Positions 1 to 30,757 of a DNA stretch of 35,739 bases are shown here, piece after piece; the first letter of the stretch is position 1; the number at the start of each line of letters is the position of its first letter. This DNA is from an uncultured Oscillospiraceae bacterium. Lineage in GTDB: Bacteria > Bacillota > Clostridia > Oscillospirales > Oscillospiraceae. Position numbers and translations under genes: made by a program. The notes under the pieces were generated by a model. It was given only the letters and a program-made list of their open reading frames with translations, had not been told where the DNA came from and ran no database searches. The stretch is from assembly GCA_947626585.1 (NCBI GenBank), contig CANQSU010000008.1:1-35739 (forward strand), written 5' to 3'.

Positions 1-120
1 GGTTCCGGTGTCGGTTCCGGTGTCGGTTCCGGTGTCGGTTCCGGTGTCGGTTCCGGTGTCGGTTCCGGTGTCGGTTCTGGTGTCGGTTCTGGTGTCGGTT
101 CTGGTGTCGGTTCCGGCGTC
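1..120 (-). repeat. 12-bp tandem repeat encoding TPEP units
   Basis: Ten consecutive copies of a 12-bp unit (plus strand GGTTCCGGTGTC, with C-to-T variants in copies 7-9 and a T-to-C change in copy 10) fill positions 1-120 and continue to the window edge. Read on the minus strand in the frame of the gene they give Thr-Pro-Glu-Pro repeats. The unit is a multiple of three, so copy-number change would lengthen or shorten the tail without a frameshift. Confidence 0.95.
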
Positions 121-1865
121 TCAACAGATTCAGTCGGCGGATCGGAAACGATATCATTGTCCACGGAAGGCGGATCAGAGATATCGATCGTGTCCTCAGA
201 CTCAATGGTGTCCGGCGTCGGCGGATCGGAGATCGTCGTCTCAGAAACCGGATCAGAAACAGGCGGGTCAGAGATTGTCGTCTCAGAAACCGGATCAGAA
301 ACAGGCGGCTCGGAAACCGTCGTTTCAGACACCGGCTCGGACACTTCGGTACTCGGAGTGGTGGACGGCGTAACCGTCGGAACCGGCGACGGATCGGGTG
401 TACGAATCACCTTGGGCAAATCATTATACTCCATCTCAACAGCACCAGTATCAAGGTCCCAGACCTCCTGGAACATGGTGCCGTTGATCGGCGGCGTATG
501 CACGATGTTGTTGCACACCATCAGGATCTTCTGACCAAGCTCGGACTTGTTCAGGACATCGCGGAAAGCGTCGATACCGGCCTTGAACGCCGTGAACAGC
601 AGGGAATTCGCATCACCCGCACGTTCCTGGCGCTGCTCCTGCCACTCCGCCTTCTCCTCGGCGGTCAGCCCATCCGGCATCTTGCCGGAACCATTGATAT
701 CCTCGGCCAGAGTCAGGTCGTATGCGTCACGATACAGATCCCGCTTCTCCTCAGGGATGTTGTCCGGCCACTCACCATTGGCCAGCGGCGAACGGTAAGC
801 GTCCTTATTTGTCAGGTCCGGGTTATGGATCGACTCGATGTACTTGTCAGGATCCCAGGACTCGTACTCCGGGGTGCCCGGCTCATAGTTGGCCTGCATG
901 TCACGGCAGAAGTCGCGCAGCACGTCGTCCGGCTCCATGTCCGGATGGTCCTTGTCCCAGTTGGCGCGCATGGCATCCGTCGCGGCGATCCGCTCGACCG
1001 CCTCGTTGCCGCACCAGGCCATGTTCATCATCCTGGCATCATAGCTCTCGCAGGCGTCAAAGTACTGGTCCTCGGTGATCTCGCCCTGCTCCTGCAGGTT
1101 CTCCAGGATCTGGTCCATGGCCAGCAACGTATCGGCCTTCAGATTCTGGTCGAAAAACGTGTTGGCATGAATATCGTCCTCATATCCGAACAGCACGTCG
1201 ATGCTCTGGATGTTCAGGATATCGCGGACACCGCCCTGCGTGCCAAGCATGGACTCGACACCGATGTTGGCGGTCAGGGTCTCCTTGCCGGAAGCCTGCG
1301 GGTCGTCGATCCAGTTGGCGATGCCATTGGCCAGCGCCGTGTCACGATCCGCCTCGGGCATGGCCATATAGGCCTCCAGGTCGAAATCCTCGCCCATGCC
1401 GCCGTTTGCGGCGACCATGGCCAGGGCCATGAACTTGTCCTCGCCAAACGACTCCATGTCGCCCCATTCATGATGCTCGGCGAACGTGTCGGACATGCTG
1501 TTATACATGTCCATGATCTCGTCGTGCTCCAAAGGGCCGGCGCCGAGCCCGGAGATCGAGCCCTGCTTGTCCGGCTGCCCGTAAGGCATCGGATGGGTCA
1601 TGGCATGAACGAACGTGTCCATGTTGTTAGTCGTCAATTCAGACGGGTCAAGGGAATGGGTGTCGGTCTCGGGCGTCGCGTCACGCTGGTCACGCACGCC
1701 GCCATGGGCCGTATCGCCGAAAACAGGGTCGTCCGTGCCGGCCGACGGCGTAGACTGTCCGCGAGGCGGGGTGCCCTGCGACGGCGACGTGCGGTCGGGC
1801 CTGGTACGGTCGCCCTCAACGTTGGTGTAATAAATATCCCGATCGTTTTGGTTGACTACCGCCAT
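1..1865 (-). CDS. Hypothetical protein with Ser/Thr/Pro-rich tail and TPEP repeats (3' end cut by the window)
   Basis: The frame opens with ATG at 1865, preceded by an AGGAGG ribosome binding site at 1875-1880, and stays open to the window edge, giving at least 621 residues. I do not recognise the family. Residues 1 to about 480 are acidic, rich in Met, Asp and Ala, with no signal peptide or membrane segment. From about residue 480 the protein becomes a low-complexity tail: first Ser/Thr/Pro/Val-rich 14-residue units resembling PVSETTISDPP, then TPEP repeats that continue past the window. Such a tail suggests an extended spacer or wall-spanning segment, but the absence of a visible export signal argues for caution. 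It has its own consensus promoter (1969-1997), directly behind the terminator of the upstream small gene. The stop codon and any C-terminal anchor are not visible. Confidence 0.85.
   Translation of the reverse strand, partial: MAVVNQNDRDIYYTNVEGDRTRPDRTSPSQGTPPRGQSTPSAGTDDPVFGDTAHGGVRDQRDATPETDTHSLDPSELTTNNMDTFVHAMTHPMPYGQPDKQGSISGLGAGPLEHDEIMDMYNSMSDTFAEHHEWGDMESFGEDKFMALAMVAANGGMGEDFDLEAYMAMPEADRDTALANGIANWIDDPQASGKETLTANIGVESMLGTQGGVRDILNIQSIDVLFGYEDDIHANTFFDQNLKADTLLAMDQILENLQEQGEITEDQYFDACESYDARMMNMAWCGNEAVERIAATDAMRANWDKDHPDMEPDDVLRDFCRDMQANYEPGTPEYESWDPDKYIESIHNPDLTNKDAYRSPLANGEWPDNIPEEKRDLYRDAYDLTLAEDINGSGKMPDGLTAEEKAEWQEQRQERAGDANSLLFTAFKAGIDAFRDVLNKSELGQKILMVCNNIVHTPPINGTMFQEVWDLDTGAVEMEYNDLPKVIRTPDPSPVPTVTPSTTPSTEVSEPVSETTVSEPPVSDPVSETTISDPPVSDPVSETTISDPPTPDTIESEDTIDISDPPSVDNDIVSDPPTESVETPEPTPEPTPEPTPEPTPEPTPEPTPEPTPEPTPEPTPE
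226..318 (-). repeat. 42-bp imperfect tandem repeat in the Ser/Thr/Pro tail
   Basis: Two adjacent units of about 42 bp (14 residues, of the type SETTISDPP-VSDPV) lie just upstream, in the coding sense, of the TPEP array. They are close copies of each other, and more diverged relatives flank them on both sides. The boundaries are approximate. Confidence 0.7.
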
Positions 1866-1968
1866 ATTCAAATACCTCCTATCATTTATCTCGTTTCAGG
1901 CCCAATATCATCGCCGCATTCAGCAATAGATAACAGGCTTTCGAAGCGCTGCCGCGCCTTTGCATATA

Positions 1969-2347: not shown

Positions 2348-5300
2348 TCAATCCACGGGACATTCCGGCGGCTTTTTGTCATCAGGCTTGTCAGGATCCT
2401 TGTCGTCCGGTTTGTTGGGCCGTTTGAACAGGGACGCGAACTGCCTGCGCTTGGCCTCCTGTGCCGCCTCGGCCCTGCCGTCGGCTGCCGGCGCAGCACT
2501 AGGCTGTTCCACATCCTGTACACGCACGGACCCGCGCCCGGCCTTGCTGACCTGCTGTGGTTTGTGTGCCAGCTCATCGATCGCCTGACGCATGTCCTGG
2601 ATATACTCCTCCGCATGGGCCACCTGCATATTTCTCTCCAAATCCGTCACGGTACGCTCCAGCATCTTGGCCGTCACGTACTGCCCGTCGATCCGGCCGT
2701 CGTAAACGCTCCTGGAATAGATCCCGCGTTGCTGGTCGGCCATCGTGTCGAGCAGGGACGCGTAGCCAAAATCGCTGCCATACATTGCCGCGTAGGTCAT
2801 ATCATACTTCTTGTCGGCTTCGCGGACAGGGTTCTTGACCGTAGGCCCGTTCTTGCCGTCTGTAGCGTACCGTTCCATGACCGCGTCCATGACCGCGTAG
2901 TCAACCTTGGAAAACCCGGGCTGGCCAATGGCGACAAGGAAATTGTGCATCTGCTTCGCGCATTCGGGCACGGTCAGGGACCGTCCGGAATCGATCGTGA
3001 ACTGCCCGCCGTACATGCTGGCCGGGTTTTTCTTCTCGACGTCGGAATCGGCAAACTCGTCGACGCAGCCGAACCCGACGATCGTGTTCAGGATCGACTT
3101 GCCGATATTCATGTTGATCGCGCACCGCTGGACATTCTGCTTGGCGTCCAGGAAGTTCTGCGTGATCGGCCCGCTGATCCGAAGCGCCGTCTCACCGTAA
3201 CCAAGGGGCGCCATGATCTTCTGCAGCTTCTGGGCCGCCGCGCCGCCAAGCCCGGTACCGTCGGACTTGCAGCCCTGCGCTACCAGGTTGGACTCGGACT
3301 GGGTGAAGAACCGGGACGGCGCCACGTCGCTCTTCGCCTTCATGTGGTCCATCCGGATCTCCGTGTCGAACACGCCCTTCTCGGGCTCATACTTCCCGGA
3401 GACGGAGGACTGCCCGTCATAGAGCATCTCGAACTTCCCGTCGGAATTCTTAACGACGGACAGGTGCCCGCCGCAGGCTTCGTGCACGCCGGCGAATTTC
3501 AGCAGCGCGTTGAGCTGCGGCTCCTTGCCTTTTTTGGAAATATTGGCATCGGAAATGATATGGTACAGCGTCTCGCAGGCACACACGCCGTGCGTCATCA
3601 GCGACGGCTTCGTCATGTAGGCCGGCATGTCGCGGTACGCCGCGGACATGTGCCCGAACGTCTCCCGGTCCAGTTTCGAGATGGCGTCCAGGTCAAGGCT
3701 GCCAATCGCCTCTACCAGGGTAGTACCGGAAGCCCCGTCACAGACGTCGTCAAATTTCTTCAGAATCCCGTTCCAGCCGGCGTCCAGCACGCGGTCATCC
3801 CGCGCGAACTTGTCGTCGCCGGCGTACAGCTTTGCGTGCTCGACACCGTCAAACATTCTCCGCAGGTCGGAGATCTGTTCCATCCTGGCGGCGATGATCC
3901 GGTTGCCTGCCGATTCTGAAATCTTTCCGGCGGCCACGTTCTCGGCGTCATAGGCGCACTGGCGCAGATGCTCCAGCATGTTGGCCATGGCGGTCGTCCG
4001 GTCCATCTCGCGGCCGATGTCGTACCCGCAAGCGGGCCGTCCGTTCTCGTCTTTCTGCTTCATATTGTACATGGCCACGGCATAGTCCGCGTTCTTAGCG
4101 ATGAACAGCGGGTGGACGTCAGGGATCACCGTGCCGTCAGGCGCCGTCAGTTCCGTGTAATCCGCCTTGTGGCACATGTTCCCCTGCATCGTGAGCCGTG
4201 TCTTGATCTCCTGCTTCGCGGCCGGCCACAGTTCCGCATATTTCTCAGAGTCGCCCTTCAGGCCGACAGGCTCCGCCGGGTACGAAACGCCGACGGTGTC
4301 GCCGTCGAAATCGCCGTCGAAGATCGTCGCGCAGGCCGGGTTGATCTCCAGGCCGTTGCCGGACGCGGACGTGATCTTGACGCGCAGCGCCCGGATGCAC
4401 CCTGTCGTCTGCCCGGGGCTCCGGTTCACCAGGATGAAATCGTCATCGGTCAGGGGCTCGTATCGTTCAGACATGAACTCGTAAGTGTCCGGAATCTGGG
4501 ACAGCTCATCCTTGGAAAGACCCGCCTTCGGCTTCAGGATCCCAAGGGACTTCGCCTTCTCGAACGACAGGCCGGCCTCGTCGATCTCCAGGGTCGGGTT
4601 GCCGTTCCAGACGCAGGTCAGGGAGTTCGGCGTCACCGTCCGGTACAAGTTCTTCTTCAGCCACCCATTCATGTCGTTCAGGGACATGGACTTCTGTTCC
4701 GGGCATGTCGCGTAGGTGCTGCTGATGTCCTTCAGGAGCTCGCCGGACGCGGCACGGCACACGCCGGAATCGACGTACGCCTGCCCATGGTCGGACTTCG
4801 CGGCCAGCTTCTCGATCACGGCCCCAGCCAAAATATCACGGAAGATCTGGAACTGCTTCCGGTTGTCAATGGGCGACACGGACAGTCCAGTGTCCTGGTC
4901 CGGGATCTCCCGGGCGGACATGAACAGCGGCGCAAGGGCCCGCTTTTTCCCGTCAGCCGCGGCATAGCCCTTGAGGTTGACCAGCTTCGCTTCCTCGCCG
5001 TTGTCGGTCCTGCATTTCAATCCGATATCGACGTTGGCGTTGATGGCGTCCAAGCTCTCCGGCAGCAGCACGTAGGCCCCGCCGTACCGCCCAACGGACG
5101 CCGTGAACATCCTCCGAATCGCATCCTCGGACTCCTGGGGGCTCGTTTTCCCGGCCTTCATGCCGGCACCAAGGGAGAACAGCTTCGAAAAATCGCCCTC
5201 CCCCAGGGCCTCGACGGCCTCCTTCATGTCGGCACCGTTGGGCCTGGTATCACCGAGGCACTTGACCACGGTGTCAGCCATCCCATCCAGGTCGACAAAC

Positions 5301-8300
5301 CGGATGCCCGGCATCGCCTCGCAGGTATATGCCCCTGCTTCCGGCGTATGGGCGAGCTGGGCACCATCCTCCGGATGCTCCGGGTCGAACGGCGGCAGGA
5401 CGTCGGACACGCGCCGCACGACGAAGCCCGTCCCGGCCCCGTCCTCTGGCGTGTTCGGGTCGGCGTAATAGCCGTTCATCAGGATCTTCCGCTCATATTT
5501 CATGATCCGATCCGGCAGCGTGCTGTCGTTGGCCGTCATGTAGGAGAGCAGGCCGGAGGCGTGCTTCGCCTGGACGGCGTACATCTCCTGGGCCGCCAGC
5601 GCGCGCCCCTGCTTGAACGTCACCTCGTTATAGTCTTTGTTCTTGTCATCAGCCGTGTGAGAGTCCGTATAGACGTTGAACACGCCCTTGGCCCCTGGAA
5701 TGGCCGTCCTCGTCCCGTCGTCGTTCTCGACCCAGAGCATGCCGCCGCCGTTCTCAGCCTGGTCCTGGACGGACATCAAAATGCTTGGGTTGGAACGGGT
5801 GCACACGCATACGTTGGTCATCGCCAGGTCCAAATCCGGATTATCACGGAACACCTTCCAGATGTCCCGCTCGACGCGGTACGCCCCGGCGAACGGCTCG
5901 ATGCCGTACCCGTCCAGGTGCATAGAGATCGTGTCCATCGGCCCGTAGGGCGAGCACAGGGCGTCGTGCAGCTCCTTCTTGATCTCGTCCGGGTCACCGG
6001 CCATGAACCCGTTCCGGTTCTTCGTGCCGAGTTCGACCCCGCGGAGCTGTCCCAGCTTGTCGCCGACCGTCATGCCGTCCGCGCACTGGTAGGCCAGCAG
6101 AGCCGACTCCCAATGCTGCCCGTCATACCCCGGCCAGGTGGACACAAGGTCCTCCAGCGCGGTGTCGATCGGCTCCCGCAGAGCCCCGTCATGGGACTTC
6201 CCATGGTTGAACGCGTAGGTCTTGAAATACTCGTAGGCGAACTCAGTCCGAAACTCGTTCTCGTCCGTAATGTCGGTGTTCACGATCTTGGAGACGATAC
6301 CCTTGTTCCCGGACTCCGTATCGCCGATCTTGTCCCACTTCTGGAGCGGCTGGAACACGCCGTTCTCGTTGAAATGCCCGAACTTCCCGGCGGACCGCTT
6401 CGCGACGATATAGCCGTCCTCCATGTTGTAGCCCAGGTTGACCATGGCGAACGTCGCCGGGGAATACATCAGGGACTTCTCGCCGCCGTTGGTGCTCAGC
6501 TGGGCGCGGTCGACCGCCTGGCCGCCCTTGTGGGGCATGAACCAGGAATCGACGCCGCCGGTCTCAAAATCCATCACGCCGGCGGACACAAGGATCGCGG
6601 ACGCCTCGTCTCCGGTCCCCCGCAGGGTCGTCAGCCTTCCCGTGATCGGGTCGAACTGCACGCCGTCGCTCAGGAACGCCACGGCGCCCATGTTCCGGGC
6701 AGACCCGGTCAGGATCGAGTCGAACACTGGGTTCTCGCTCTGAAGCCCGACGCGGGACCCCTTGCAGTCGGACAGGCGCATGTTCTTCCTGGACTGGTTC
6801 CCTGCCGTGTTGGCGATGGACATCTGGTCCAGGTTCAGCATGATGCCGTACAAGCCGACGTTCTCGTCGATGTCGACACGGGGCAGCACGACACGGTTGT
6901 TGAACATCTGGGCCTGGGTGTAAACCAGGTTCGCCACGCGCCGCGTGGCGTCCTCGGCCTCGGGCCTCGGGTCAATGTACATTTTATCGTAAGTTCCGGA
7001 CTTGTCGACGGTCGGGTTCTCGACAAAGTTCTCCAGGTACTGGTTTGCTACCATGGACTTCGCCTTGTCCTCCAGGATGTACGTGTTCGACCGGTAGCAC
7101 TTCGCCAGGGAACTGGCGCTCACGTTGGCAAAGAACACGGACCGCATGAGCTCCGGCTTGGAACCAGTCGCCCTGTGCGTGCCCTCATAGACGCCCAGGC
7201 AACGGTCCAGGTTGTCCAGGACGGCCATCTGGTACGTGTAGAGCTTCACGCGTTCCGGCATGGTCTGCCTATTGTGATTGTACCCGTCATAATTCCGGAC
7301 CTTGCCGGAGATCCCGTAATACCGGTTCATCACGATCGCGTCGCTGGACGTGCCGGGCGTGGCGGACTGGGTATCCAGCGGACCGAACGCGACCGGGTTC
7401 AAAAGCTCCCCGTTCCGTCCGACCAGGACCCTGTCATCCACGGTGACCCACGCCCGGCGGGTGATCACGTTGCCAGCCTCGTTGCGCCGGATCACGCCGG
7501 CCTCGTCAACGTCCGGTAGGTCCACCTGCCTGGCGCCAATGGTGCCTTCTTCGACCTCCGTCACGACGGGCCGGATCCACGCCTTTTTCTCCGTAAACGG
7601 GCCAAGTTTCAGCGCCGGCGTGTTGTTGGCGTCCAGGTAATAAAGCATGCCCTGCTTGGTCATGAAAAGCCTGTCTGGGCTGTACGTGTCGCTCTCGTGC
7701 TGTTTCAAAAACGCGTCAACGCGCGTCATGGCGGCAAGCTGCAGCGGGTGCGTGGCACGCCAGATCGCCCGGTCGACGACATTGTAATCGTCCGTGTCGA
7801 CCGTCCCGTCGCTGCCCACGCCGGATTCCGTCATCCATGCGAACGTCCGGTCGGAACCAGGGGCCATCGGCGCGAAAGTGGCGTCAAACCAGGCCTTCTC
7901 GTCACGGGTGGAATTGAATTCCGAAGCATCCGCGTCATCATCGTCCATGGTCTCGTTCAGGGACACGGTGTCCCCGTCCTCGACACCGGCCTCGGACACG
8001 CCGCTGGTACGGTGCCTCGCCGTGGCAAAGCTGTCGACGCTGAACGCCTCGGACGCGTAAAGCTGGACCGTGGCGGGGCTGTACGTCTGCAGGTTCGCCC
8101 GGATGACGGCCCCGGGATTGGACACGTAGTTGACCTGGTCCGTATAGGAAAGCAGCCTCAAAAGGCTGTCATAATCGTCGGGCATGATCCCGCTGGAAGC
8201 GTGCCGGCACATGTTGGCCTTCAGCACCAGTTTCCCGGTCCCAGGGTCGGTATAACCAAACACCTGGTCCAGGGCCCTGGACAGGGTCTGGCTGTCAGGG

Positions 8301-10651
8301 TCCGACACGCTGTCGAGCATCTCGTTCACCAGCTGGGTGGACCGGTCGGCATCAAGCGTCTCACAGGCGTCCAGGATCTCCTGGGTCAGCACGGTCTCCC
8401 CGTTCCCCACGGTGCCGACATCCCTGGCAAGCCCGTCAGTCACGGACCGGACGAGGGAGCCAAGGTACGCGTGGTACACGTGCCTTGCGGTCGTATAGCC
8501 GGTCACGTCGGCACCGTAGCTGGTGTTCAGTTCCCGGGCCGCCAGCGATTCCAGCCGGCTGGACATCCTGCGGCGCAGGTCGTCCACGGTCGCCCCGGAA
8601 CGCATGCGCGCGGCCATCAGGTACACGGCGTCGCCAAACGTGAACTCCGACCCGTCCGGCTTCACGGCGCCGTCACACTGCTCAGCGATAAACGCGTCCA
8701 GGACGGACGCCATCCGCTCACGGTTCTCGGGGCGCAGGAAACCGGCCTTCGCCACGGCCTTCGACGTCTCCATGTCCTCCGCAAGGGCGCGGATCACCTT
8801 CGGGGCGTCAACGGTGCCCTGGTTCGGGATCAGGAACTCGGACAGGTCGGCCGCGCCAGTATTGCCGACGCTCCTCGCCATCTTCACGATGCTGATGTCA
8901 CGGTCCGACATCTTCCCGGGGTCCGCCCAAGCATCGAAGGTCTTCTGCATCTCGGTGACCATGCTGCGGTCGATCAGGTGCATCTGGGTATACTGGTTCG
9001 TCGACGGGTTGTTCACGCCGTTCTGGGACGCCTCATTGGACTCACGGAACCGGCGGTTCGTGATGGAATACGGGTCATAGGACCCAGACACGATGTCGCC
9101 GGCCACCGGCTGCACGGACAGGTTCTTCGGCACATAGTCCAGGTAGGGATAGAACGCGAAAAATCGCGTCGGGTTGGACTTCGCCCGGTTGATGTCGTGG
9201 GTGTGCTCCCCCGTGATATACAGCATCGGGAGGTATCCGCCGGTCTCGCGCTCCACGTAAGTCTGCGGCGCGAAATGAATCTCGAACTCATGGGAGGACA
9301 TCTTGTCCTGCACTGTAGAGAACACATGTTCTATGTAGTTAAAATAATTCTGGGCATTCGCGATCACGGCCTGCGGGTCCTGCGCCTGCGGGTCGCCAAA
9401 GACGGTGCTGCCGTAATTCGTGCCGCCGATCTGCCGGTTGAACATCTCGAACGCGATGTTCAGGTCCTCCTGCTCCAGTTCCCGGCGGGAATACTTATTC
9501 ATCAATTCGGCCATCTGCCAGCCGAACTGGACCTTCATGTCGGCGCCGACCTTGCGCGCGTCATACGCCGGCACAGGCTCGGTCCTCGTCTCGACATGCG
9601 TGACATGGCCGGTGTACTCGTCCCGTCCATCCTCGCCCTGGACGGTCTCCATGGTCTCGACGGTCTGCGTCCGCGTGTAGGACGCCCCGCGCACGAAGTC
9701 TTCCGAAGCACGGGTGGACGCGATGAAAAGGTCGCCGTTGTTGCCGAACATGTCCTCGACGCTGCGGGACATGTATTCCCCGTGGTAGCGCTGGCTCGCG
9801 ACCTGGAGGAGGGCCTTCTGGGTATCGAACTGCAGGACGCCATTCATGTTTTCCGGCATGCTGCCGTCCCGCCCGATCCTCTGGCCGGGCTGCGCGTACA
9901 GCCCAAGCCGCTCGGCCTGGGAGATCCCGGACAGGCGCAGGGACCTAAGCTCCGGCATCAGCGGGCTGATCTTCAGGCAGTCATGGGACCGCCCCGGGGC
10001 CGTCCCGATGTCGCGCCGGAACCCATCCCGCGTGTCGTTCACGGTGAGCCGCTCGTCAGGCGCCCGGTAGGCGTATAAGTCATGGTCCGTGTCAGTAAAC
10101 GTCCGGCCGTCCTCGGACACGCCGGCCACCATGTCAAAGCCCTGGACGGCACGGACGACCCTGGACAGGACACTGTCCGGATTGCCGGCGTCAAGGATCC
10201 GCCCGAACTCGGCCTCCGTCATGGCAGCCTTGGCGTCGTCGTCCAGCTTGTCGACGTTGGACTCGCCCACAAGGTGCTTCATGACCATGTTCTGGAGCGC
10301 CTCGGAGTTCAGGATGGACGCGCGGACGAAACCCGAAATCACGTCAGGCGACAGCCTGTCGCTCGTGACCCAGCGCCCGTTTTCATCCTGGACGCGGAAC
10401 CCCTCGACCAGGTTCTCGTTGGTATAACGCACGACGCCCTGGTCCGAAGCCCGCATAGCCATCTGGTCGCGGGCCGCCCCAAGGCCGTCGGGATGGATGG
10501 TGCTGATGTCACGGGAACCCTCGATCCCATAATCGTGCAGCATCTCCTTCAAAACGATATAGTATACCATGTCGGCCTGCAGCTTGTTCCGGATCTGCCG
10601 GTCCTTTGTCTCGCCGCCGCGGCCGTATGCACGCAAATCATCTAAAAGCAT
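2348..10651 (-). CDS. Giant single-chain DNA-dependent RNA polymerase (beta and beta-prime signatures in one polypeptide, 2767 aa)
   Basis: The protein carries hallmarks of both large RNA polymerase subunits in beta-then-beta-prime order. Beta-type: NQSRKNMRLSDCKG and NPVFDSILTG ahead of GYNMED (1407-1412), then DK (Lys1441) and GNKG (Lys1450), matching the two catalytic lysines. Beta-prime-type: NRSPGQTTG leading to DFDGD (2114-2118), the three metal-binding aspartates; GLGGAAAQ near 2470, like the GARGSAAQ segment before the bridge helix; and PITQNF (from 2495), like PITANFREGLNV at the bridge helix. About 1300 residues precede the beta core and are unrecognised. The C-terminus is a KPDD-rich tail. 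I choose ATG at 10651 because AGGAGG at 10661-10666 lies nine bases upstream; the GTG at 10669 would overlap that site. The gene has its own perfect promoter and follows the coupling-protein terminator. Single-chain two-barrel polymerases are known from SP-beta (YonO) and crAss-like phages; this one is longer than either. Confidence 0.9.
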   Translation of the reverse strand: MLLDDLRAYGRGGETKDRQIRNKLQADMVYYIVLKEMLHDYGIEGSRDISTIHPDGLGAARDQMAMRASDQGVVRYTNENLVEGFRVQDENGRWVTSDRLSPDVISGFVRASILNSEALQNMVMKHLVGESNVDKLDDDAKAAMTEAEFGRILDAGNPDSVLSRVVRAVQGFDMVAGVSEDGRTFTDTDHDLYAYRAPDERLTVNDTRDGFRRDIGTAPGRSHDCLKISPLMPELRSLRLSGISQAERLGLYAQPGQRIGRDGSMPENMNGVLQFDTQKALLQVASQRYHGEYMSRSVEDMFGNNGDLFIASTRASEDFVRGASYTRTQTVETMETVQGEDGRDEYTGHVTHVETRTEPVPAYDARKVGADMKVQFGWQMAELMNKYSRRELEQEDLNIAFEMFNRQIGGTNYGSTVFGDPQAQDPQAVIANAQNYFNYIEHVFSTVQDKMSSHEFEIHFAPQTYVERETGGYLPMLYITGEHTHDINRAKSNPTRFFAFYPYLDYVPKNLSVQPVAGDIVSGSYDPYSITNRRFRESNEASQNGVNNPSTNQYTQMHLIDRSMVTEMQKTFDAWADPGKMSDRDISIVKMARSVGNTGAADLSEFLIPNQGTVDAPKVIRALAEDMETSKAVAKAGFLRPENRERMASVLDAFIAEQCDGAVKPDGSEFTFGDAVYLMAARMRSGATVDDLRRRMSSRLESLAARELNTSYGADVTGYTTARHVYHAYLGSLVRSVTDGLARDVGTVGNGETVLTQEILDACETLDADRSTQLVNEMLDSVSDPDSQTLSRALDQVFGYTDPGTGKLVLKANMCRHASSGIMPDDYDSLLRLLSYTDQVNYVSNPGAVIRANLQTYSPATVQLYASEAFSVDSFATARHRTSGVSEAGVEDGDTVSLNETMDDDDADASEFNSTRDEKAWFDATFAPMAPGSDRTFAWMTESGVGSDGTVDTDDYNVVDRAIWRATHPLQLAAMTRVDAFLKQHESDTYSPDRLFMTKQGMLYYLDANNTPALKLGPFTEKKAWIRPVVTEVEEGTIGARQVDLPDVDEAGVIRRNEAGNVITRRAWVTVDDRVLVGRNGELLNPVAFGPLDTQSATPGTSSDAIVMNRYYGISGKVRNYDGYNHNRQTMPERVKLYTYQMAVLDNLDRCLGVYEGTHRATGSKPELMRSVFFANVSASSLAKCYRSNTYILEDKAKSMVANQYLENFVENPTVDKSGTYDKMYIDPRPEAEDATRRVANLVYTQAQMFNNRVVLPRVDIDENVGLYGIMLNLDQMSIANTAGNQSRKNMRLSDCKGSRVGLQSENPVFDSILTGSARNMGAVAFLSDGVQFDPITGRLTTLRGTGDEASAILVSAGVMDFETGGVDSWFMPHKGGQAVDRAQLSTNGGEKSLMYSPATFAMVNLGYNMEDGYIVAKRSAGKFGHFNENGVFQPLQKWDKIGDTESGNKGIVSKIVNTDITDENEFRTEFAYEYFKTYAFNHGKSHDGALREPIDTALEDLVSTWPGYDGQHWESALLAYQCADGMTVGDKLGQLRGVELGTKNRNGFMAGDPDEIKKELHDALCSPYGPMDTISMHLDGYGIEPFAGAYRVERDIWKVFRDNPDLDLAMTNVCVCTRSNPSILMSVQDQAENGGGMLWVENDDGTRTAIPGAKGVFNVYTDSHTADDKNKDYNEVTFKQGRALAAQEMYAVQAKHASGLLSYMTANDSTLPDRIMKYERKILMNGYYADPNTPEDGAGTGFVVRRVSDVLPPFDPEHPEDGAQLAHTPEAGAYTCEAMPGIRFVDLDGMADTVVKCLGDTRPNGADMKEAVEALGEGDFSKLFSLGAGMKAGKTSPQESEDAIRRMFTASVGRYGGAYVLLPESLDAINANVDIGLKCRTDNGEEAKLVNLKGYAAADGKKRALAPLFMSAREIPDQDTGLSVSPIDNRKQFQIFRDILAGAVIEKLAAKSDHGQAYVDSGVCRAASGELLKDISSTYATCPEQKSMSLNDMNGWLKKNLYRTVTPNSLTCVWNGNPTLEIDEAGLSFEKAKSLGILKPKAGLSKDELSQIPDTYEFMSERYEPLTDDDFILVNRSPGQTTGCIRALRVKITSASGNGLEINPACATIFDGDFDGDTVGVSYPAEPVGLKGDSEKYAELWPAAKQEIKTRLTMQGNMCHKADYTELTAPDGTVIPDVHPLFIAKNADYAVAMYNMKQKDENGRPACGYDIGREMDRTTAMANMLEHLRQCAYDAENVAAGKISESAGNRIIAARMEQISDLRRMFDGVEHAKLYAGDDKFARDDRVLDAGWNGILKKFDDVCDGASGTTLVEAIGSLDLDAISKLDRETFGHMSAAYRDMPAYMTKPSLMTHGVCACETLYHIISDANISKKGKEPQLNALLKFAGVHEACGGHLSVVKNSDGKFEMLYDGQSSVSGKYEPEKGVFDTEIRMDHMKAKSDVAPSRFFTQSESNLVAQGCKSDGTGLGGAAAQKLQKIMAPLGYGETALRISGPITQNFLDAKQNVQRCAINMNIGKSILNTIVGFGCVDEFADSDVEKKNPASMYGGQFTIDSGRSLTVPECAKQMHNFLVAIGQPGFSKVDYAVMDAVMERYATDGKNGPTVKNPVREADKKYDMTYAAMYGSDFGYASLLDTMADQQRGIYSRSVYDGRIDGQYVTAKMLERTVTDLERNMQVAHAEEYIQDMRQAIDELAHKPQQVSKAGRGSVRVQDVEQPSAAPAADGRAEAAQEAKRRQFASLFKRPNKPDDKDPDKPDDKKPPECPVD

Positions 10652-10702: not shown

Positions 10703-10731
10703 ATTATATACGGTGACAGGCCAGGTGTCAA
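10703..10731 (-). promoter_or_regulatory. Perfect consensus sigma-A promoter for the RNA polymerase gene
   Basis: Minus-strand TTGACA (10726-10731), 17-bp spacer, TATAAT (10703-10708). The -10 box lies about 50 bp before the ATG. The polymerase gene should therefore be read strongly by the host holoenzyme, independent of its own product. Confidence 0.92.
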
Positions 10732-10743: not shown

Positions 10744-10781
10744 AAAAATAAACCCCGCGCCGGCATCCGGTGCGGGGTTTA
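10744..10781 (-). terminator. Intrinsic terminator after the coupling-protein gene
   Basis: A perfect 10-bp stem (10772-10781 with 10749-10758) encloses a 13-nt loop and is followed on the minus strand by TTTTT (10748-10744). It starts 15 bp after the stop codon at 10797. The opposite side is also AT-rich, so it might work weakly in both directions. Confidence 0.9.
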
Positions 10782-10796
10782 TAATTTATTCCGGCA

Positions 10797-15359: not shown

Positions 15360-15560
15360 TCAACGGTCCTCTTCCTTGCCGTCTTCGTCAGGGCCGCAGT
15401 ACAGAAGAATGGCACGCTCGATCGCCTTCGTCTTGGACTGCCCGGTCTGCTCACAATGAGCCAACAGCGCCTCGTACGCGCCCTGCTCGATATAAGCGCT
15501 GACGAGGGTCCCGACCTTCTTCTTGCGTTCAGGACGCCCATTCTCAACGTTGTTGCCCAT
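15360..15560 (-). CDS. Small ribbon-helix-helix-like protein (66 aa), probable DNA-binding regulator
   Basis: The product begins MGNNVENGRPERKKK and has the size and pattern of a CopG/Arc-type ribbon-helix-helix protein: a basic N-terminus, a strand-like VSAYI segment, a helix (EALLAHCEQTG), a turn, and a second helix (SKTKAIERAILLY). Such proteins dimerise and bind operator DNA through the strand; in conjugative elements they often act as autoregulators or relaxosome accessory factors. I chose ATG at 15560 because AGGAGG (15570-15575) lies nine bases upstream. A longer in-frame extension exists but overlaps the end of the coiled-coil gene and has the composition of a shadow frame. It is the last gene of the operon; its ribosome site sits at the stop codon of the gene before it, suggesting coupled translation. 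The fold is assigned by pattern only. Confidence 0.75.
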   Translation of the reverse strand: MGNNVENGRPERKKKVGTLVSAYIEQGAYEALLAHCEQTGQSKTKAIERAILLYCGPDEDGKEEDR

Positions 15561-15576: not shown

Positions 15577-18222
15577 TCAGTCTCCGGCGGTCTGGCTGCC
15601 GCCTTCATCGGCCCCTGTCTCGGCCTCGGAGCCGGTGCCGTCACCGGTCTCGCTGTCATCCACCTTGTCACCGTCCAGATACCCCTGCAACTCGCTGGGG
15701 TCGACCTCCTCACCGTCAATGAAGAAGTGCGGGACAACCTCGCCGGCGGACTGGTTAACGCTGGATCCCTGCGCGTTCGCATTAGAGCGGTTGGACATGA
15801 ACCAGCACCCAAGGATGATGCCGATGGCCAGCGCCGCCACCATGCCGATCAGCATGAAGGTCATCTTCAGGCGGTCACTGTACTTGTGCAGGCTGACCAC
15901 ATGGTCCGCCCGCTCCGTCCACGCCTCGCGCTCGCTCTTGAGCATATCGATCTGCGTGGTGTATTTCTTCTCTGTGTCTTTTTCGAGAGTAGAGAACTTG
16001 CGGGTGAGTTCGTCGTTCCGGGCGTTCGCCTTGGAGAGCTGCTCCTCCAGCAAATGGATCTCGTTGTCCTTGTGCTGGACCGTCTCGGCCTGGGAAGTGC
16101 GCAGGTTCTGCATCGCATGCTCGTAACGGTCCTGCTGCTCCAGCATCCGGTCATCATTGGCCAGCTTGGCCTGATCAACGTCGGAACGGATCGCCGCCAG
16201 CCGGGACTCGAAGTCCTGCTTGGCCAGGGCCATCTGGGCGTCATACTCCTGACGGACCTTGACAGCCTCGTTGGACCGGCGCTGCTCTTCTGCCAGGACG
16301 CGCACCCTAGCGTCGTCCAAGGCCATGTTCTCGTTCATATAGTCCGTGATCATGGCCTGCAGGCGGGCGTACTCCTTGCGCTCCTGGGCCAGCATCTTCT
16401 GGTACTCGTCCGCGCAGATCTTCAGCGCCTCGGTGATGCCAGCGTCCAGCTGGCGCTTCGCCTCGGTGCGGCGCTCGTTGTTCAGGTTCTCCAAGGACGC
16501 CACACGCTCGGACTCCAGGTTGTTACGAAGGTCGGTCTCGATCTCCTGCAACTCCCTCTGATGGTCCTTGGAATACCGGTTTAAGAAGTTCGCCTTGGCC
16601 ACGGCCTTGGCGTTGTCCATCTCGGCGTTCAGCCGGCTCTGGAACGCGTCCTCACAGGCCTTCTTGTACGCCTCGGACTCCTCGCTGACGGCCGCCAGCT
16701 TGGTCTTGTAGTGGGCGTCGATTGTGCTCTTCGCGTAGCCGAAACGGGTCTTCGGGTCGTCCGTGGACACGGACTTCGTGATGGCCTCGCAGTGCTTGGA
16801 AACGATCATCATGTACTGCTTGCGCATGATGAGCAGGTTCTCGTAGTGCAGCTTGGAAAGGCGGGCGTTCGCGTCGCGCCGCAGGTTGTTCACGTACCCG
16901 TTCAGCCACCCGTCGCCCTCTTCCTCAACAAAGGGGATGTAGGGGTTGCTCTGGATGAACATGGCGTCGAACGGCTGAGAGGAGATCTCCAGGTCCAGGC
17001 CGTCCGAATAATATTTCCGGGTGACGTACTGGTCCATGGCCGCCATGTCGAACACCGGGCGCTGCCTGGGCGCCGCTGCCGCCGGGGAGTTCTCCCTGGC
17101 CCGCTTGATGTCGGCGTCGCCGGCAGCTTTATCCGATGCCGCCTGCACGGCCCCGGACAATCTGCTGATCCGGGATTGGATCGCGCTGCCGGGCGCCTTC
17201 GGGGCGTCGTCCGGCTGGGACGGTGCCGGGGCCGGTCCGCCGGTAGGCGTCTCCTGCCTCGCGGCCTGTGCCGCCGCCGGGCCATCAGGGACGCCGACCT
17301 CTTCCTTTTGGGACTCGACCCTGGAGGCCACACCGGACGCCTTGCTCACGGCGGCTGCCGCGGCAGCCGCCGCTTCCCCGGCGTCATGCTTCTGCGCCGC
17401 GGGTTCAGGCTCAGATTCCCCTGCAGGCTCTTCATCCGCGGGCGGCTCATCCTCCTCAATACCGCGCCCGTACGTCTGTTCATACTCATCCTCGGAAACG
17501 GCGTCGTCGCCGCCATCGATCCCACCGGAAGGCTGCGCGGCATCCTCGTCACCGGGCTTGTCGGTGTACTCGCCGTGGATGCCGCCCATCTCGCCGGTGG
17601 TACCGGAACGGCCCTGGAGCATGGCAATCCAGTCGCGGACATAGATGTTCTTCTCCAGCATGTTCCGGACGTCGTTCAGGGTGGCGAAAATGAAGTCGTC
17701 ATCGATCTCCGGGGTCTTGGTCTCCAGGGACAGGGAGTGTTCCTCGGTGGCATAGGCGATGTAGAACTTCATATCGAAGGTGTCTTCGAACTCGGCCAGC
17801 GCCGCCAGGGAGCGGGACGTCGGGATCACCAGGATGATCTCATTGTCGAACAGCGCGTCCTCGATGACGCAGTTCATGCTGGCCTTGATGGCCGTCAGGA
17901 TGGATCCGACGTCATCGTCGGACTTGTTGGCGAAATCGTCCACCACACGGGTGTCAAAGCCAAGCAGGACATACTTCGTGATGTCCTCGCCAGTCTCACG
18001 GTCCTTGTCGACAAACGTGAACTGCGGAATATCCTTCCGCATCGTGTCGACGGCATTGGACCAAACGGTCTCGTCAAACTTTTTCTTCATGTTGCGGATC
18101 TTCTTGAGCCGCTGCTTATCCGCGGCCGGATTGGCCTTGGGTGCATCCGCCTGGGGAACCCCGCCACGGACGTCTTCCGCATTTTCAGCGGGTGCCTGCT
18201 TCTTCTTGCCAAAGAAACCCAT
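15577..18222 (-). CDS. Large coiled-coil protein with a near-C-terminal membrane anchor (881 aa), unknown function
   Basis: I do not recognise the family. Residues 1-30 are basic and Ala/Pro-rich. Residues of about 45-210 look globular, with alternating strand-like hydrophobic runs such as YVLLGFD and IILVIPTS. About 210-380 is acidic or Ala-rich low complexity, including a run of consecutive alanines. About 470-785 is a long heptad-like helix rich in Glu, Arg, Gln and Ala, predicted coiled coil. A single membrane segment follows at about 787-808 (MTFMLIGMVAALAIGIILG), and a 70-residue acidic tail ends the protein. This implies a long rod on the cytoplasmic side with a short outer tail, though the orientation is inferred. 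ATG at 18222 follows AAAAGGAG. It lies 47 bp after the Clp-type gene and just before the RHH gene in one operon, so a joint role with the ATPase is plausible. Confidence 0.85.
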   Translation of the reverse strand: MGFFGKKKQAPAENAEDVRGGVPQADAPKANPAADKQRLKKIRNMKKKFDETVWSNAVDTMRKDIPQFTFVDKDRETGEDITKYVLLGFDTRVVDDFANKSDDDVGSILTAIKASMNCVIEDALFDNEIILVIPTSRSLAALAEFEDTFDMKFYIAYATEEHSLSLETKTPEIDDDFIFATLNDVRNMLEKNIYVRDWIAMLQGRSGTTGEMGGIHGEYTDKPGDEDAAQPSGGIDGGDDAVSEDEYEQTYGRGIEEDEPPADEEPAGESEPEPAAQKHDAGEAAAAAAAAVSKASGVASRVESQKEEVGVPDGPAAAQAARQETPTGGPAPAPSQPDDAPKAPGSAIQSRISRLSGAVQAASDKAAGDADIKRARENSPAAAAPRQRPVFDMAAMDQYVTRKYYSDGLDLEISSQPFDAMFIQSNPYIPFVEEEGDGWLNGYVNNLRRDANARLSKLHYENLLIMRKQYMMIVSKHCEAITKSVSTDDPKTRFGYAKSTIDAHYKTKLAAVSEESEAYKKACEDAFQSRLNAEMDNAKAVAKANFLNRYSKDHQRELQEIETDLRNNLESERVASLENLNNERRTEAKRQLDAGITEALKICADEYQKMLAQERKEYARLQAMITDYMNENMALDDARVRVLAEEQRRSNEAVKVRQEYDAQMALAKQDFESRLAAIRSDVDQAKLANDDRMLEQQDRYEHAMQNLRTSQAETVQHKDNEIHLLEEQLSKANARNDELTRKFSTLEKDTEKKYTTQIDMLKSEREAWTERADHVVSLHKYSDRLKMTFMLIGMVAALAIGIILGCWFMSNRSNANAQGSSVNQSAGEVVPHFFIDGEEVDPSELQGYLDGDKVDDSETGDGTGSEAETGADEGGSQTAGD

Positions 18223-18269: not shown

Positions 18270-21200
18270 TCAGTTATTCTTGATCTGCTTTGCAAGGTCA
18301 ACGTTCTCGTTGACAAACTTCGTCCCAACGTAAACGTAAGCCTCAGACTCCAGTTGCCGCTTGTTCAGGATAGCCATGTTACCGGCCACGGAGACGAAGA
18401 TCTCCTTCTCCAGCGGATGCTCGTTGATGTACCGGGACAGCGGCACCGTCACCTCACGCTCCAGCTTGGACACCACGATACGGGCGCCGCCGGAATCGGA
18501 GTCGCTGTCCAGCTTGTCATAGATCAAGTACACGTAAATGTTCCGGTGGACATGCAGGTTCACACCATGCTTCCGCTGTACCGTCTCGCTCAGGGCCCGC
18601 AGCTTCTGCTGAACGATGCCCATCATCGTGCGCTTGGACAACGGCTGGAACGGGACGATGCAGTCGATACGTCCGAGCAGCTCGGGCGGGAATTTCGACC
18701 CGGACTGGGATCGGATGGATTCCCGGATCAGCTTGTCATATTTCTCCAGGGTCTTGAAATCCGCCTTGTCGCTCTGCTCGTAGTTCGAGATCGTCTTGTA
18801 GATCTCGTTGCCGGCGTTCGTCGTGACGATGATATAGGCGTTCTTGAACGTGACCTCACGCTCGTTCTCGTCCATCAGCCGGCCGTCGTCCAGCACCTGC
18901 AGGAGCAGCCTCGTCACCGGCGCGCACGCCTTCTCGATCTCGTCCAGAAGGATCAGGCAGTACGGGATAGTCGACACCCGGTTGGTCAGCTCCCTCCGGA
19001 ACCGGTTCAGGGAATCAGGCAGCGCGTACTCCGTCATATCGAAACGAATCAGGTTCCGGTCGTCGTCGTACAGGATGGCCGCCAGCTGCTTCGTGGTCTC
19101 GGTATTGTGCGTCACGATAAACTGTCCAGCCTGATACAAATGCTCATCATCCTCGACCATGATGCAGGTCGTCGGCATCATCTCGGGAATCTCCTCGATG
19201 CTCACGATCGGGACCAGGCCGTACGTCTTCTCACGCTGCTTCGCAACGCCTTTCGCCTTTACGGCCAAGTCATGCTTCTTCGGAATCGAGAAGAAAAGCT
19301 CTTTCCGGTCGTTTTCAACCTTGACGTGCAGCTCATACTCGTCATGATACTCACCATCACGGTCCCGGCTTCCATGGTTTTTAACCGAACTTGCAACACC
19401 AAGGCCAAACAGCACATCCTGGATATCATACGCCAGCTTTTCAGAAGACGTGGAGTACGACACATTAAACCGGTCGCCATCGGACTGTTTAATACAACCA
19501 TCCGTATCAAACAGGCCGCGGATCAATTCCCAACGTTGCTCTACGGAACCATACTTATAAGCGTCAGGGATAAATTTCTCATGCGATTTCAGGCCGACAA
19601 GCCCCGTCCCATCAAGAATCGACGTCTGGAACAGACTATCCTTCAGAACATTCCGCCCATGGCCATTTTCCTCGCGGACAAAGCACCAATTATAGTTCTT
19701 CCCACCCTGTTTCGCCCGCACGGCACCAATCTTCTCAGCGATTTTATCAGGGATGAACGAGTTCGGTGCGGAAACTGTCAAAACCGACATCGTCAAGCAT
19801 CCATTTCCGATCATGGCCCCAACGACATAAGGATCAACATCATAGACACGCTCCGCATATTGCGCGGCTTCGTTCATGGGAATCCAGATCCTGGCGGAAC
19901 GCCGTCCGTTCCGCTCTGACCGATAAAGCCCGCGGCGGATGATGTCTTCCGTGTTCGTCGTCACGAACGTCTCAGACTCATGTCCTTTGGCATATTTCCA
20001 GGTCCAGAGATGGCTCCCGTCAACGATGATCTCACGCCCGTCACCAAGCGTCACCCGGTACACCTTCTTGAGCCCACGGTGATAAACACCCGTCACCATG
20101 ACCGGCTCCCCCTGGCGGTTAAATACATAGTCACCGACGGCAAGGTCGCCATTGCGTTTCCTCACAACGGACCCGTCCGGCACATACACGGGGATCATCT
20201 CATCATCGACGATGCCTTTGCCTGTACCAGTTGACCCGGTGAAAAGAAAGGAACTCATGGGCCGGTTCGGGTTGTTCAGGCCAGCAACGCAGATTTGTAA
20301 CCTCTGCTCGATGGAGCTGGTCGCCACTTGCTGCGCCAGGACCTTCTGGTCCAGCTTCTTCTTGATCGTGGACGCGTCGACACGAAACGCGACGTTCACG
20401 CCCTCGGTCTCATAGATCACGTCCGCCAGGAGCTTCCGGTCCAAAGGCCGCCGCGTGAGCCTGTGCCAGCCGATCATGGAGTCCAGGATCAGGATCGACT
20501 TACGGGGCTGGGACGTCGCCGGGATATACCGGTTCGTGTATGTATAAATGTCCGAAAACAACGACTGGTGCGCCGGCTGCACGTCATACCGGTCGCACAT
20601 GGACTGCAGGATCGAAACGACGGCATCCTCGCCCGGCTGCGTCAGCTTGATACGCTGCAGACGCTCGACCAGGGGCAGGTTCGGCGCGATGAACTGCTGG
20701 TACTCGATGTGGGTCGTCGCCGCGATGACCCGGATGCCGCGGGTGCCTGAGTCTGCAAGCAGCGGCTTCAGGACCTCGACGGCCGCCGGCGACAGCTGTA
20801 CGATCTGGTGGAACTCATCTATGAACAGAACGATCTCCTGGTTCTTTTCACGGCGGAACCGGGAAACCTCGTCGAACAGGGTCTTCAGGCGGTCCGCCAT
20901 CTCGTTTTCATTTTTCAGGTTCGCGATCATCTTGGACAGGTCAACTTCCAAATACAACCTGGCCGTGTCCTCGACCATGATGCCCTGCACCAAGGCTGTG
21001 TTGTGTGTCACGATATGCTCGTAACCGATCTGGAACAGGTGTGCCGGGCTATCGACGTAAATACAGGCCATTTCCGTCTTGTAACCAAGGTCCTTGACTT
21101 CGGTGATTGCCATGTCGTTCCGAATCTTGTGAAACTTCCGTTCCACCCCGACGCGTTCAAGGCAGGCATCAACATGCCGTTTCAGCCAGAAAAGCCCAGC

Positions 21201-22301: not shown

Positions 22302-22348
22302 GCGCAGTTCCTCCTTTCGATTAGACGCGCATTTTCGCTCTGATAAGG

Positions 22349-22377
22349 ATTGTACCACGTCCCGGCTGAAAAAGCAA
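22349..22377 (-). promoter_or_regulatory. Sigma-A type promoter of the Clp operon
   Basis: Minus-strand TTGCTT (22372-22377) and TACAAT (22349-22354) with a 17-bp spacer. The -10 box lies 47 bp before the ATG at 22301. Upstream (22378-22413) are A-tracts at roughly helical spacing, resembling an UP element or bent DNA. Confidence 0.82.
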
Positions 22378-26880: not shown

Positions 26881-28362
26881 TCAGGTCAGCCCCATGTCAC
26901 GGGCGAGGGCGTCAATGTCGACGTCCGTGCTGATGATGTCGCCGTCCAGGCTCTTCTTTTCCTGCACGCGGACCTCGGTCTTGCCGGTGACCTTGTTCTC
27001 GACCTTGACTTCAACGTCAGCGTCACGCTGCTCCAGGCCCTTCCCGGCCTCTTCCTTTCCGGCGCTCGTCATGGCGTCCTGCTGCTGGCGCAGCCTCGCC
27101 TGCTGCTCCGCGCGTCGCTGGGCCAGGCGGTCCTTGCGGCTCAGGGTGCGCTTGACGTCATTCACGGCCGCAACGGTGGCCGCGGCGGCGTTCTCCGCGT
27201 CGTGCGCGGCCGAATGGATCCGGTCGCTCAGGTCATCGATCACGGACACGGGGTCGTCCATCCTATCCGCCCCGGGCTTCCTGGCCACGTCGGTGGTCGG
27301 GCTGGTCATCACGTCATCGTTCCGGCCGGGTGCCTTGGGCTCCGCCAGGGACTTCGCGTCGACCTTCGGACGGTCGACGGGAATGACCTCCGCTCCGGCG
27401 TAGATCATCCTGCTGGCCATGTCGTTGAGCCGGGCATCCAAAGTGGCCTGCTCGACCTTGTGGCCGGCGTCCTCGGTCTGCTGGACCTCTTTCTTACGGG
27501 CCTTGTCCGTCTGCTCCTTGATGTTCGTCACGGCGTCCGCCACAGCCTTTGCCGTCTCACCGGCAGAAGGCGTCCCGAACATGTTGGCCTTGGCCATCTG
27601 GTCACGCAGCCGCTGCTGGATGCGGCTCTGGGCCACCTCGACGAAGCTGGCGCCGTCAGCCATGGTGCGGCCGTCAAAGTCGTCGCTGAACCGGTTCGTC
27701 GGGGCGTCGTACAGGGCGCGCCTGCGGATGTCGGACGTCTCGCGGTCAAACTTAACGCCGTCGCGCAGCTTCGCGGACTGCTCCTCGTTGTGCTTCTGGG
27801 CCTTGAACGGCAAAAACGCTGCCGCCAGGGTCTTGTACCCGGTCTTCATGGTGCTGGTGTGCAGGGAAAGCCGGTCCTGGATCTCGACGAACGTGATCGG
27901 CGTGTTGGCGATGGCCGAATAGTCGACCTTGCACGGGATCTCCAGGAGGCTCCCGATCACGCGCCCCTGGCAGGACCAGCCGTTGTTGAACAGTCCGTTG
28001 TTCGCCAGCGTGGCGATCTCCAGGTCGGAAAGGGCGTAGCTCATGGACGCCGTGACCGGAAAATCGGTGCGGAAGTCTAGCTGGTCGCAGGCGTTCGGGA
28101 ACAGGAGCCCCGTCTTCTCCTGCAGGAACACGCCCTCGGCGTGCCCGTCGAACTGTATGTACGGCCTGTAATTCTGCATCATGTCGAACTGCACGTGCGC
28201 CTGCTCGACGCGGAACAGCATGTGGCAGTCGATCCCATACAGGCTGATGATCTCGGACTTGCGGCAGCGCCGGACAATGTCGTTCACACGCCGGTCCCTT
28301 TTATGGAACACGGTGCTGTGGATGCGCCCGTCCGAACGCTGTACTGCGGTATTTGCTGGCAT
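26881..28362 (-). CDS. Hypothetical protein (493 aa), possible relaxase partner
   Basis: I do not recognise a domain. Residues 1 to about 215 look like a folded domain with several aromatic and strand-like stretches (YRPYIQFDGHAEGVF). From about residue 225 the protein is helical and rich in Ala, Lys, Glu and Arg, with a probable coiled coil at about 400-440 (RKDRLAQRRAEQQARLRQQQ) and a charged tail. No signal peptide or membrane segment is seen, so it should be cytoplasmic. ATG at 28362 follows AAGGAGG, which lies inside the last codons of the upstream membrane-protein gene. Its stop codon is one base before the relaxase ATG, which suggests coupled translation and similar amounts of both products. 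That supports, but does not prove, a relaxosome role. Confidence 0.82.
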   Translation of the reverse strand: MPANTAVQRSDGRIHSTVFHKRDRRVNDIVRRCRKSEIISLYGIDCHMLFRVEQAHVQFDMMQNYRPYIQFDGHAEGVFLQEKTGLLFPNACDQLDFRTDFPVTASMSYALSDLEIATLANNGLFNNGWSCQGRVIGSLLEIPCKVDYSAIANTPITFVEIQDRLSLHTSTMKTGYKTLAAAFLPFKAQKHNEEQSAKLRDGVKFDRETSDIRRRALYDAPTNRFSDDFDGRTMADGASFVEVAQSRIQQRLRDQMAKANMFGTPSAGETAKAVADAVTNIKEQTDKARKKEVQQTEDAGHKVEQATLDARLNDMASRMIYAGAEVIPVDRPKVDAKSLAEPKAPGRNDDVMTSPTTDVARKPGADRMDDPVSVIDDLSDRIHSAAHDAENAAAATVAAVNDVKRTLSRKDRLAQRRAEQQARLRQQQDAMTSAGKEEAGKGLEQRDADVEVKVENKVTGKTEVRVQEKKSLDGDIISTDVDIDALARDMGLT

Positions 28363-28365
28363 CTC

Positions 28366-28830: not shown

Positions 28831-28841
28831 TTGCTCTCCTT

Positions 28842-29657: not shown

Positions 29658-29676
29658 GTCAAAAGTCCTCCTCTCG

Positions 29677-30678: not shown

Positions 30679-30728
30679 TGGGCTTTCCTCCTTATGAAAT
30701 TCTCCGGCTCCCGCCGGCCACTGGAGCT

Positions 30729-30757
30729 ATTATAACACAGCTCTCCGGGAAAAACAA
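30729..30757 (-). promoter_or_regulatory. Sigma-A type promoter of the relaxase operon
   Basis: Minus-strand TTGTTT (30752-30757) and TATAAT (30729-30734) with a 17-bp spacer. An AT-rich UP-like block (30758-30780) lies directly upstream. The -10 box lies 50 bp before the ATG at 30678. Confidence 0.85.

Follow-up and report, generated by a model that had tools for sequence, protein, structure and literature searches.

A putative single-chain beta/beta-prime RNA polymerase kept with the coupling protein and relaxase of MobL-type conjugative elements

Why would a conjugative element encode an RNA polymerase (RNAP) of its own? To our knowledge, such elements are generally thought to rely on the host RNAP. 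The question is raised by one whole contig of 35,739 bases, analysed here over its full length and hereafter called the window, from a 3.08-Mb assembly (84.75 % complete, 6.25 % contaminated) whose own rpoB and rpoC lie on another contig. The gene for a single-chain polymerase is real; it is found on the minus strand at 2348-10651 and encodes 2767 residues. The longest open form of its frame starts at GTG 10669 (2773 aa). Judged from the sequence, ATG 10651 is more likely the better start, because AGGAGG lies 9 bases before it and a TTGACA-17-TATAAT promoter is found upstream. Residues of the window protein (P0001) are counted here from GTG 10669, which gives the numbers of an earlier, sequence-only reading of this DNA plus 6.

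That reading had described a beta-type half followed by a beta-prime-type half. The motifs it named (GYNMEDG, DKIGDTESGNKG, NRSP, DFDGD, GLGGAAAQ and PITQNF) were all found, and the order of the two halves in one chain is borne out by both motifs and profile matches. The beta-type core (residues 1316-1699; 5573..6724, minus strand) is defined by family-conserved columns and by its match to the rpoB profile (E 1.2e-10). It contains FDSILTG..N.G, R1388, GYNMEDG, WDK1447IGDTESGNK1456G, R1625SN and GR1689, so that the two lysines of DKIGDTESGNKG are Lys1447 and Lys1456. The beta-prime catalytic barrel (residues 1984-2182; 4124..4720, minus strand), assigned from PF00623, AlphaFold2 and comparison with the PDB, holds NRSP at 2082-2085 and DFDGD at 2120-2124. 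On the window polymerase, PF00623 (Pfam Rpb1 domain 2) reaches 27.8 bits versus a cut-off of 25.3. The profile built from the family matches RPB1 (E 9e-20) and, in profile-profile comparison, host-type rpoC (E 1.7e-15) and rpoB (E 1.2e-10), while three unrelated window proteins used as controls reached a probability of at most 0.3 %. As PF00623 is above its cut-off and the profile of the relatives matches cellular beta-prime and beta, the motifs are not due to chance. A profile search had been proposed earlier as a check, and besides rpoC and rpoB the family profile also matches phage single-chain RNAPs.

The family is present in 13 of the 72,556 plasmids of PLSDB, 35 of the 48 matching records having been set aside as rpoB/rpoC-like or short unannotated matches. 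The carriers are Gordonia pGKT2, Rhodococcus pGS01, a Streptomyces plasmid, five staphylococcal plasmids and five near-identical Lactococcus records; outside PLSDB, the window contig and an Oscillospiraceae metagenome-assembled genome (MAG) also carry it. Counting the five Lactococcus records as one and two S. aureus records as one, ten distinct members were compared. The enzyme has been overlooked, since all 13 plasmid copies are annotated as hypothetical. The pGKT2 gene (L008 17586-23321) is annotated from an internal start (1487 aa), its open frame being 1911 aa, and a small opposite-strand gene is called over its 5' part. Twelve Clostridioides difficile plasmid records (e.g. NZ_CP149721.1) match in two pieces each, annotated as rpoC and rpoB in eleven of them; these are perhaps phage-plasmids with a two-chain RNAP of their own.

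In the core, the window protein is 74 % identical to the protein of the Oscillospiraceae MAG and 20-24 % identical to six plasmid members, and despite this distance to six of the seven others aligned the active-site residues are kept in all ten members. The earlier claim that the metal-binding aspartates and both catalytic lysines are retained thus holds for all ten members compared. Each of the ten has, in one and the same order, the DFDGD aspartates, both lysines, ED (or DD) in GYNxED, the Arg of SRxN with the Gly-Arg that follows, RxP and the TQ motif. DK...GNK is also found in every member, as WDK in the window and GDK in the plasmid members. A bridge-helix-like TGLGGAAAQ (2472-2480) and a trigger-helix-like PITQNFLDAKQ (2501-2511) follow DFDGD in the window protein (3137..3256, minus strand; motif table of the 10 members). 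TGxxG is shared by nine members, the Lactococcus one having TANAG, and the trigger-helix-like motif reads TQxxLxxKH in eight and KQ, with Gln for His, in the window and its nearest relative from Oscillospiraceae. An hhalign comparison placed a relative's EPLTQATLKLKH colinear with phage EPMTQMTMKTFH at a probability of only 0.5 %, and for this reason we grade a trigger helix in the family as likely and no higher.

The Gln in two of ten members could mean that the protein is a relic, kept without synthesis, for example to bind DNA or the host RNAP. This is very unlikely, as the catalytic aspartates and lysines are all kept (10/10) and dN/dS is low: 0.22 for the window-Oscillospiraceae pair and 0.10, 0.10 and 0.13 for three other pairs, rough ratios given dS values of 1.1-2.0. 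Such low values in four pairs (0.10-0.22) point to purifying selection. From the kept residues, the family is predicted to be catalytically active.

The stretch from the glutamate of ED to the lysine of DK measures 30-34 residues in 10/10 members versus 152 in the host rpoB, and by this measure the beta flap is missing in all 10 members compared. In cellular enzymes the flap holds sigma region 4 and the exit channel. A flapless polymerase would therefore not hold sigma in the normal way. About 1300 residues before the beta core had been called unrecognised, and indeed there is no Pfam or NCBIfam match up to residue 1300 (6770..10651, minus strand); a profile-profile comparison of the family's N-terminal part with the rpoB N-terminus gave no match either. 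This part is about twice as long in the window as in compact relatives, which have about 660 residues ahead of the core, and the core alignment shows large insertions in the window polymerase relative to other members.

A fold with two double-psi beta-barrels had been expected, and here the result is divided. The AlphaFold2 model of the beta-prime barrel alone has a mean pLDDT of 61.9, and all of its PDB matches listed (50 per comparison) are RNA polymerase entries, so that this barrel is predicted with middling confidence. The 1200-residue core (pLDDT 34) gave no usable model, and with it none for the beta barrel; its alignment had 13 rows, namely the window, the Oscillospiraceae protein and 11 distant phage rows (two with an insert at DFDGD), the nearer plasmid relatives being left out. 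The beta barrel is assigned by motif and profile. With DFDGD in 10/10 members, a beta-then-beta-prime single-chain RNA polymerase of the two-barrel (double-psi beta-barrel) superfamily is supported, and the identity proposed earlier, a multisubunit-type single-chain polymerase on a conjugative element, is sustained by profile, motif, synteny and selection evidence.

How widespread is the family? Searched in 300 genomes of its own bacterial family, the window protein matched three, its own and two with short matches that are rpoC-like by profile score. The family profile matched 364 of 394 genomes of the order at E 1e-5, and among the matches listed the best besides the window's own reached 69.2 bits, in rpoC-sized frames. 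At E 1e-30, a search of 398 genomes of the phylum gave the window's own copy alone. The family is rare in the genomes sampled, the window's own copy being the one strong match in order and phylum. All three samples are rich in MAGs, which tend to lose plasmids. No close relative of the window protein was found in IMG/VR, and none of the loci from two profile-guided scans of it (24 and 6 loci) exceeded 92 bits with the family profile. These loci were rejected as family members on that score and form a separate, flap-bearing RNAP group. GenBank phages gave no match to the window protein; the Rhodococcus protein matched 11 phage records, annotated as beta-prime or RpoC. The tree built for the beta-prime barrel covers the ten members, nine phage rows and eleven rpoC rows. 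Long branches meet in it, and the ten members lie on one side of a branch (100/99), apart from the phage and rpoC rows. IMG/VR rows with a DFDGD insert were excluded from this tree and from the second model; L045 was used in the tree but not in that model.

The coupling ATPase and the relaxase noted earlier were both confirmed. The VirD4-like coupling protein (1473 aa; 10797-15218, minus strand) matches PF02534 (E 3e-20) and PF12696 over the cut-off and NF045973 below it, and the MobL relaxase (793 aa; 24498-26879, minus strand) matches PF18555 (E 1.6e-34). With both present, the window carries a MobL-type conjugative element, which is incomplete since the contig ends at 35739. Between the two lie, all on the minus strand, a ribbon-helix-helix DNA-binding protein of 66 aa (15360..15560; PF01402 over cut-off), an 881-aa protein without family that is kept before the coupling protein in 5 elements (15577..18222), and a ClpB-like two-domain AAA ATPase with two intein-like inserts (18270..22358; PF07724, PF00004, PF14528, PF05204) and homologues in other elements. 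Beyond the relaxase, p26881, p28366, p28842, p29677 and p30841 (26881..35739, minus strand) have no clear family and keep their order in the Oscillospiraceae element; the frame of p30841 is still open where the contig ends. The gene downstream of the polymerase (3..1871, minus strand), which has a consensus promoter at 1997-1969, occupies the same place there. Twelve window genes, including the polymerase, are colinear with the Oscillospiraceae contig.

Some features of these neighbours deserve mention on their own account. The ribbon-helix-helix gene shows very high DNA-level conservation with the Oscillospiraceae element, unlike the adjoining non-coding stretches. Each P-loop of the AAA ATPase has one insert (LAGLIDADG, Hom_end), after GAGK and GTGK; the Streptomyces homologue is oversized too (1431 aa) and that of Oscillospiraceae has 620 aa. 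The product of the gene at 3..1871 ends in a run of PTPE repeats, and the C-terminus of its Oscillospiraceae homologue is without repeats.

The order MobL relaxase, AAA ATPase, VirD4 coupling protein, polymerase is found in nine of the ten elements, in Bacillota and Actinomycetota. In Oscillospiraceae, Streptomyces, Gordonia, Rhodococcus, SAP020A and pHD75-1, homology to the window proteins was tested with phmmer or HMM. In S. capitis and S. aureus this was done for the coupling protein, MobL and the AAA ATPase being taken from annotation. The polymerase directly follows the coupling protein in five elements (with a small opposite-strand call between them in Gordonia) and stands two genes further on in the four staphylococcal ones. 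The tenth element, the Lactococcus plasmid, has the AAA homologue, and its coupling protein is about 32 kb off in pJM1A. No MobL was recognised in the stretches of this plasmid that were read, and a 734-aa candidate relaxase was rejected as it had no MobL match. The arrangement had been called unusual. It is rare, considering the 13 carriers among 72,556 plasmids, but it is no lone oddity, as at least ten elements have the polymerase. The carrier pGKT2 was moved between actinobacteria in the laboratory, according to the available part of the report (PMC5640721); therefore, at least one carrier is a working transmissible plasmid.

From this evidence, the protein is probably the conjugative element's own dedicated DNA-dependent RNA polymerase and belongs to the transfer module. 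Both barrels would come from a single chain: the beta half would give the two lysines and the beta-prime half the metal-binding DFDGD, behind which lie a bridge helix and a shortened trigger-helix region. As to template, timing and start-site finding, we infer that the host polymerase with sigma-A would make the polymerase mRNA, and that the polymerase would then transcribe the DNA of the element itself at about the time when transfer takes place. Because a flapless enzyme could not hold sigma normally, start sites would be chosen by its long N-terminal part or by a protein of the element. Three observations do not fit easily with a dedicated polymerase: Gln replaces the trigger-helix His in the window and its nearest relative, the perfect promoter-like sites are of sigma-A type with no element-specific promoter found, and the Lactococcus gene sits away from the coupling-protein gene.

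The transcription signals concern the first of these steps. A sigma-A type promoter, TTGACA-17-TATAAT, matches the consensus at 12/12 positions before the polymerase gene (10703..10731, minus strand), and TTGACA and TATAAT are likewise present in the Oscillospiraceae element. Between the coupling protein and polymerase genes, a terminator-like hairpin of 16 pairs is found at 10748..10782 (minus strand); the scan listed it on the plus strand, and TTTTT follows it on the minus strand. With its own sigma-A promoter after such a hairpin, the polymerase gene appears to form a separate transcription unit that the host enzyme reads. The consensus scan found 13 promoter-like sites in 1-18000, versus 5.3 (sd 1.9) in shuffles, two of them perfect, and 16 in 18001-35739, versus 7.1 (sd 2.8), none perfect.

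What would such an enzyme transcribe, and where? The plain reading is a donor-side role like that of YonO, in which the polymerase would remain in the donor and, once transfer is switched on, transcribe some of the element's genes from promoters of its own. We consider this possible without leaning towards it. The polymerase gene does sit in the transfer module, and YonO is described, in the part of PMC5467207 available, as transcribing late genes of SP-beta. However, both perfect sites of the window, which lie ahead of the polymerase gene and of the next gene downstream, are of sigma-A type, and neither the alignment of three intergenic stretches with the Oscillospiraceae element nor the consensus scan brought to notice a non-sigma, element-specific promoter.

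The bolder reading is co-transfer: the coupling protein would recruit the polymerase through a relaxase-like tail, and the polymerase would enter the recipient together with the single-stranded DNA and make first transcripts or primers there. Relaxases are the cargo recognised by coupling proteins. In three of the four staphylococcal elements, MobL and the polymerase share an acidic-hydrophobic C-terminal tail with the pattern hydrophobic-acidic-hydrophobic-acidic-hydrophobic (relaxase and polymerase, respectively: IELEL and FELEM in SAP020A, IELDI and VEMEM in pHD75-1, YEIEL and FDLEM in S. capitis). Since the polymerase has the same tail as a cargo of the coupling protein, a common dock is suggested, and these C-termini are a hint of co-transfer in staphylococcal elements. 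The tail ends 2 of 61 ORFs in SAP020A, 2 of 24 in S. capitis and 3 of 47 in pHD75-1 (the third being a RelE-type toxin), versus 2/646 other proteins, or 3/991 when ORFs down to 90 aa are included, as they were in the test sets. The motif had been picked out by eye on the very proteins in which it was then counted. The tail is found on the polymerase only in S. aureus (1/34 ORFs) and Lactococcus (1/59 ORFs), where it is absent from the relaxase and the candidate relaxase, respectively. Relaxase and polymerase are both without it in the window and the Oscillospiraceae element. The actinobacterial elements have a loose pattern only, drawn from the very proteins counted (4/45 ORFs in Gordonia, 3/47 in Rhodococcus, 1/24 in Streptomyces, 0/716 others); it includes the polymerase each time and the relaxase in one of three. 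Several proteins from the transfer regions of pGKT2 and pGS01 have GPQLGG, GPQLG or GPELGA at the C-terminus (L083 13097-14359, L008 2661-3632, L008 23726-26062, L084 9686-10924), perhaps as a common signal.

The chain is also very large to translocate, and we regard co-transfer as rather doubtful. It has precedents in the sources available in part: the N4 virion RNAP and transferred primases (PMC5512222), proteins transferred by the pED208 T4SS (PMC8406263), and early transcription of F single-stranded DNA from single-stranded promoters (PMC9849209). Only tentatively, therefore, do we propose that a co-transferred polymerase would transcribe or prime the single-stranded DNA before the host RNAP can act. 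Transferred primases of other plasmids (PMC5512222, in its available part) also recall a narrower role, in which the polymerase would lay the RNA primers from which the lagging or complementary strand of the element is synthesised, and Frpo-type RNA also primes replication, to go by a title cited in PMC9849209. Such a primase role is unlikely, as a two-barrel polymerase would exceed a primase's needs.

Whichever of these roles applies, the polymerase is kept beside relaxase and coupling protein in two phyla, and this suggests that RNA made by the element is part of the transfer route; RNA synthesis may be a built-in step of MobL-type gene transfer. The family offers a testable case of how the first genes of a plasmid come to be read after its arrival in a new host, and would represent a flapless form of the multisubunit polymerase design. 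If co-transfer were true, the conjugation system would bring along a transcription machine of its own, which would be for conjugation what the N4 virion RNA polymerase is for its phage. In the literature searched, mostly without subscription papers, we found no description of this family on conjugative plasmids beyond a remark on NCgl1702, of its constant location next to the relaxase and the coupling protein in two phyla, or of a tail common to polymerase and relaxase.

Single-chain two-barrel RNAPs are known from phages. The phi14:2 protein gp077 (KC821624, 2180 aa), which we take to be the crAss-like polymerase in view of its length and its DFDID motif, is a single giant chain like the window polymerase and is annotated as a virion structural protein. 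YonO of phage SP-beta likewise has both barrels in one chain on a mobile element; it is given in the available part of PMC5467207 as 839 aa with no detectable trigger loop. The present family keeps a trigger-helix-like TQ motif. Compared as single sequences with the family profile, neither gp077 nor YonO gave a detectable match, and the family appears to be nearer to cellular and phage-type beta/beta-prime than to either of them. The phage-type single-chain beta/beta-prime RNAPs of the IMG/VR contigs (L045-L074; 11 used, 1975-2662 aa) also have beta before beta-prime, and theirs is the best profile match of the family (E 2e-30). Unlike the window family, they keep a flap-sized stretch (about 140 residues in L048); they have the full trigger motif in 5/11, are much closer to cellular rpoB (E 1e-75) and rpoC (4e-112), and form a separate group in the tree. 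In L054, L055, L062 and L063, the sequence deviates right after DFDGD and the length exceeds that of the others by about 500 aa, as would be seen with an intein inside the catalytic motif. Cellular bacterial RNAP is sigma-dependent and has HGNKG, SRxN, NRxP, DFDGD and TQ..H in the same order as the family, but its beta and beta-prime are separate and the flap is present, while the window has one flapless ORF. By description, there is a likeness to the NCgl1702-like RNAPs of mobile elements, two-barrel enzymes without the SBHM (flap-type) insert in the beta barrel according to the available part of PMC7824862. The polymerase family described here shares this lack of the insert, and may be the NCgl1702-like family or its sister.
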